Assembly (NCBI GenBank): GCA_013215505.1
Contig: JABSQZ010000008.1
Coordinates: forward strand, 141,038-205,037
Origin: Oceanospirillaceae bacterium
GTDB lineage: Bacteria; Pseudomonadota; Gammaproteobacteria; Pseudomonadales; Balneatricaceae
Reading direction: 5' to 3'
Length of the DNA stretch: 64,000 nucleotides
Shown: in pieces, positions 39,654-39,744 of the stretch
Position numbering within the stretch: position 1 is the first letter of the stretch
Layout of the letters: each line of letters starts with the position of its first letter
Made by a program: the position numbers and the translations under genes
The notes under the pieces: model-generated
What the model was told of the DNA's origin: nothing
What the model saw: only the letters and a program-made list of their open reading frames with translations
The model's database searches: none

Positions 39654-39701
39654 AATAATGATATTCGATCTCATTATCGTTTGGCGCTTTAATACTGTCA
39701 A
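39654..39701 (-). promoter_or_regulatory. Promoter and Fur-like site for fagA-like/fumC
   Basis: On the minus strand: -35 TTGACA (39696-39701), exact 17-bp spacer, -10 GATAAT (39673-39678). An imperfect palindrome 39654-39678 with arms GATAATGA and TCATTATT covers the -10 box and the expected start site, as expected for Fur repression. Transcript would start near 39666, 28 nt before the ATG. Confidence 0.65.
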
Positions 39702-39744
39702 GGTCAAGGTCAAGGTCAAGGTCAAGGTCAAGGTCAAGGTCAAG
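39697..39744. repeat. Hexanucleotide repeat (GTCAAG)8
   Basis: Eight perfect tandem copies of GTCAAG (plus) = CTTGAC (minus). Each copy gives a TTGACC hexamer reading toward the fagA-like/fumC promoter. The array ends exactly in the promoter's TTGACA -35 box. Confidence 0.95.

Follow-up and report, generated by a model that had tools for sequence, protein, structure and literature searches.

A perfect tandem array of the hexamer CTTGAC was identified on the minus strand at 39697-39746 of the window, the stretch of 64,000 nucleotides of Oceanospirillaceae DNA that was analysed. The array is likely to be a microsatellite expansion, specific to this lineage, of the -35 word in an older and conserved promoter that is probably repressed by Fur. 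With a period of 6, 8.3 copies and 100% matches over 50 bp, it had the highest score among the 20 tandem-repeat rows of the window. Read on the minus strand, it contains seven copies of TTGACC followed by one terminal TTGACA. The initial annotation had described eight CTTGAC units giving repeated TTGACC and a final TTGACA placed 17 bp before GATAAT, and the tandem-repeat and promoter scans both agreed with this description. A genome-wide search revealed no second place with at least three CTTGAC units in the window's genome, and the 246-bp stretch comprising the array and its upstream region had no other copy there. The array is therefore not a dispersed element. A chance origin was ruled out, as no mismatch occurs over 50 bp and the last unit falls on a -35 hexamer kept in four relatives. 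An assembly artefact is unlikely, as an array of 50 bp should be shorter than typical reads, although three other arrays are located at contig ends.

The -35 hexamer TTGACA (39696-39701, minus strand) is made up of the last array copy and a flanking A, and the -10 hexamer GATAAT (39673-39678, minus strand) follows after a spacer of 17 bp. In a scan of positions 39300-40000 this promoter scored 11/12 and three other sites scored 9/12, four promoter-like sites in all against a mean of 1.8 (sd 1.4) in shuffled sequences. Sites of at least 11/12 were rare, with five in 922,876 strand-bases of the window's genome, the fagA promoter included. TTGACA is found only in the last copy, its A being part of the flank that does not vary. 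The array stops before this final A, so the gain or loss of units leaves the -35, the spacer, the -10 and the Fur-like element described below intact; all four lie outside the variable units, and the core spacing does not change with unit number. Direct tuning of the core promoter by the repeat, one form of the tuning suggested in the initial annotation, is therefore unsupported, whereas tuning through the upstream flank is possible. The sequence supports a predicted sigma70-type promoter ahead of fagA-fumC, with a Fur-like element lying across part of it.

GATAAT forms the first arm of a 25-bp Fur-like palindromic element (39654-39678, minus strand), which overlaps the -10 and is conserved in the genus. 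Scoring was carried out against a near-palindromic Fur consensus of 19 positions, to which the element matched at 14. On one strand of the genome sample, matches of at least 14/19 were observed at 17 of 461,060 positions, the element included, and four were in the window. As sequence matches, all seven other upstream regions scored (L015 was left out) reached 14-18/19. A gene of the Fur family is present in all seven genomes of the genus. The fagA-fumC promoter is probably repressed by Fur, and Fur with iron would shut it by covering the -10. The class I, iron-sulphur fumarase domain PF05681 was detected in six of the seven genus genomes, the window's included, which would fit a change to the iron-free fumarase as a means of sparing iron.

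The fagA-like gene (39308-39637, minus strand) encodes 109 amino acids and adjoins fumC in all eight loci with a FagA match (L008-L015). Its probable start codon is the ATG at 39637-39635. A TTG at 39655 was considered as an alternative start and rejected, because it would fall inside the Fur-like element and because conservation between species fits the ATG, which is the most likely start. No Pfam or NCBIfam family matched the FagA-like protein up to E = 1; the name fagA is taken from gene order and the Fur-like element, not from a protein comparison with Pseudomonas FagA. The gene at 37812-39188 (minus strand) encodes a class II, FumC-like fumarase of 458 amino acids, with Pfam Lyase_1 and FumaraseC_C above cut-off and class II fumarases as its best solved relatives. 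NCBIfam TIGR00979 and NF009089 also matched the fumarase, both below their cut-offs. The score for TIGR00979 was 489.9 bits, with a cut-off of 664.75, and the protein may belong to a distinct subgroup. No relatives of the fumarase were found among viral contigs. The next long open reading frame past fumC on the same strand is ABC transporter-like by sequence.

A similar gene arrangement is found in Pseudomonas, where the fagA-fumC-orfX-sodA operon has been called Fur-regulated (PMC3742457); another report words this as possible regulation by Fur, and describes a rise of sodA and FumC_1 under iron limitation (PMC3377617). Both the Pseudomonas operon and the window have a FagA-like gene beside a class II fumarase gene behind a Fur-like element. 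However, the Pseudomonas operon contains sodA, which is not in the operon of the window. The C-terminal domain of Fe/Mn superoxide dismutases, PF02777, which covers the Fe/Mn type only, was detected in none of the seven genus genomes (G000-G006) and in 12 of 14 control genomes. Since sodA is missing, the window holds a fagA-fumC pair and not the full Pseudomonas operon.

Protein searches identified FagA-like relatives in nine of 57 genomes, the window's own counted. At all four other loci of the same genus with the gene (G003, G006, G002 and G004) a single TTGACA precedes the fagA-like gene, with spacers of 17, 17, 18 and 17 bp to the -10 hexamers GATAAT, AATAAT, GATAAT and GATAAT, respectively. 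All four -10 hexamers overlap the same palindrome, so that the arrangement read earlier from the window alone, a -10 inside a Fur-like palindrome before a fagA-like gene and fumC, recurs throughout. No array of at least 2.4 copies was found in the 3.3-kb loci of these four genomes. The unit count between species is thus eight in the window versus one in the relatives, with one genome per species. The presence of promoter and Fur-like element without the array at 4/4 loci of the genus that have the gene indicates that the promoter predates the array. Two further genomes of the genus, G001 and G005, gave no FagA match and only distant fumarase matches. The upstream regions of the window, G003 and G006 were aligned. 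From the stop codon of the tauE-like gene to the -35, the distance is 230 bp in the window (about 188 bp without the seven extra units) versus 69 bp in G003 and 57 bp in G006. The region separating the tauE-like gene from the promoter (39746-39931 in the window) is much longer than in these two nearest relatives and present as a single copy in the genome. The change in the window's species therefore went beyond unit number, a point against the expansion reading.

A census was made of perfect arrays with three or more copies and a length of 24 bp or above; periods of 5 to 12 were sought and periods of 6 to 10 were found. The 461,438 bases sampled from the window's genome held 23 such arrays, of which the CTTGAC array is the tenth longest. 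Relative to crude calls of open reading frames, 14 of the 23 lay between frames, two at an edge and seven inside. The other sampled arrays have units different from CTTGAC. The array thus has the features of a short tandem repeat: perfect head-to-tail units, many arrays in the genome and absence from relatives. Elsewhere in the family, 10 arrays were counted in 400,000 bases of G002, seven in 200,000 bases of G008, two in 200,000 bases of G012 and none in 289,130 bases of G006, a fragmented assembly. Within the genus the sampled density is uneven, with no array in G006, which counts against the expansion reading. Among the 23 arrays, only CTTGAC provides the -35 for a strong promoter match, no other array scoring above 8/12, and a selected role for it is therefore possible.

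Four CTTGAC units in a row were found in one of seven genus genomes and two of 116 family genomes, the second case being inside a reading frame. The same hexamer array read backwards, used as a control, was found in one of the 116. The similar rate of the control indicates that a hexamer array as such is unremarkable in the family. At L018:1471-1713 of G096, (CTTGAC)4 lies on the reverse strand inside overlapping open reading frames, one of which reads it as an Asp-Leu repeat near the C-terminus. A doubled -35 pattern (TTGACNTTGACA, a spacing of 16-18 and NATAAT) was present in two of 369 class genomes, the window's and a two-copy case in G357; read backwards, the pattern was present in one of 369.

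A second array appears to have arisen in a parallel manner. The (GGTAGT)6.5 array at L054:15695-15733 (L131:1996-2034) corresponds to 1.5 copies at the orthologous place in G003 (L132), where these copies contribute to the 3' arm of a predicted hairpin. The sequence comparison suggests that one arm of this hairpin gave rise to the array, as a -35 would have given rise to the CTTGAC array. Loci L133-L135 are without the GGTAGT array, but their alignments begin past its place; L136 and L137 were left out. An octamer array at L045:1803-1862 had no counterpart in the six loci orthologous to it (L124-L129), where the alignments begin just past the array. The -35 array fits a pattern of arrays grown from words already present.

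The array probably arose by replication slippage on CTTGAC, a process that would also have acted at many other places in this repeat-prone genome. Its last copy would remain the -35 at any unit number. Once a few units exist, the sequence just upstream of the -35 would be constant for the polymerase, and unit number would matter only by shifting DNA farther upstream by 6 bp per unit. It is unlikely, with some probability left to it, that slippage has made the array a rheostat, in which unit number sets fagA-fumC output through contacts of the polymerase alpha subunit with AT-rich DNA. The upstream DNA would then be displaced by 6 bp per unit, roughly half a turn of the helix. An AT-rich block, TATATTTT (39769-39776, minus strand), lies upstream of the array and is a possible UP-like element. 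If transcription starts at 39666, the block (39776-39769) would lie at approximately -103 to -110. At eight units it is thus far from the zone in which the alpha subunits usually make contact. Moreover, with at least four units the approximately 20 bp beside the -35 are identical at any unit number. Contingency loci usually involve genes for surface proteins, unlike the metabolic fagA-fumC pair. An iron-responsive promoter of a metabolic gene, with its core fixed and its upstream contacts dialled in 6-bp steps by a rheostat derived from its own -35, is regarded as improbable. The fixed core and the distance of the AT-rich block from the usual contact zone favour neutrality, and the extra CTTGAC copies of the proposed microsatellite are most likely neutral or small in effect.

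Two other roles had been proposed for the repeat in the initial annotation, cooperative binding of a regulator and a series of entry points for RNA polymerase. The perfect identity of the units and their position next to the -35 would suit operator sites bound cooperatively by some regulator. However, the genome has a single place with at least three units, the four orthologous promoters of the genus lack the array, and the other sampled arrays carry other units; this role was not supported and is very improbable. As TTGACC matches the -35 consensus at 5/6 positions, the upstream copies might also offer RNA polymerase alternative -35 elements or act as decoys, which is considered the most doubtful of these readings. 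For the seven upstream copies the best -10 hexamer at 16-18 bp spacing matched at 3/6; one copy reaches a 4/6 hexamer at 19 bp. Alternative entry points are therefore unsupported, a result that bears on entry and not on a pure decoy.

Repeats in promoters are described in several known systems. A parallel for the proposed rheostat is sabA of Helicobacter pylori, in which a T-tract adjoining the -35 is reported to alter the alignment of upstream elements (PMC4081817). In both cases a simple repeat abuts the -35, outside the core promoter. The sabA tract is a homopolymer, whereas in the window the repeated hexamer itself makes up most of the -35 word, and any effect of it would be hypothetical. 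The promoters of Haemophilus influenzae hmw1A and hmw2A have 7-bp tandem repeats, similar in unit size to that of the window, and more repeats are described as generally giving less mRNA (PMC2424069). However, these genes encode adhesins and carry 9-28 repeats, a number that differs from strain to strain, and the array in the window precedes a metabolic gene. In Neisseria meningitidis nadA, a TAAA tract upstream of the core promoter, a position similar to that in the window, alters the spacing from sites farther upstream (PMC2791445). That tract is described as acting through NadR operators and IHF, none of which was identified in the window. Many tandem arrays of 6-9 bp, mostly between genes, are reported for Xanthomonas and Nostoc (PMC4692102), similar to the many, mostly intergenic arrays of the window's genome (14/23 between crude frame calls). 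The Xanthomonas and Nostoc arrays are described as G-rich heptamers with one motif per genus, whereas the window's genome has many different units. A natural array of -35 words was not named in the titles and abstract openings among the matches listed, which concerns those texts and is no claim of absence from print.

The proposed expansion of a -35 word gives a clean natural case of a repeat traceable to one functional word that the relatives possess. The geometry predicts that the core promoter is unaffected by unit number, and this fixed core offers a straightforward way to ask whether a repeat next to a -35 has any influence in itself. In repeat-prone marine bacteria, the birth of arrays inside functional elements, here a promoter and a predicted hairpin, is open to species comparison.

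Thirteen heptamer arrays were present in the sample L041-L060, several with related GGAAGT-like units. By a hand count on crude frame calls, eight of the 13 lay between open reading frames facing each other. Tandem arrays were also located exactly at contig ends in three cases (the end of L060 and the starts of L065 and L075), from which it appears that longer arrays may break these assemblies.
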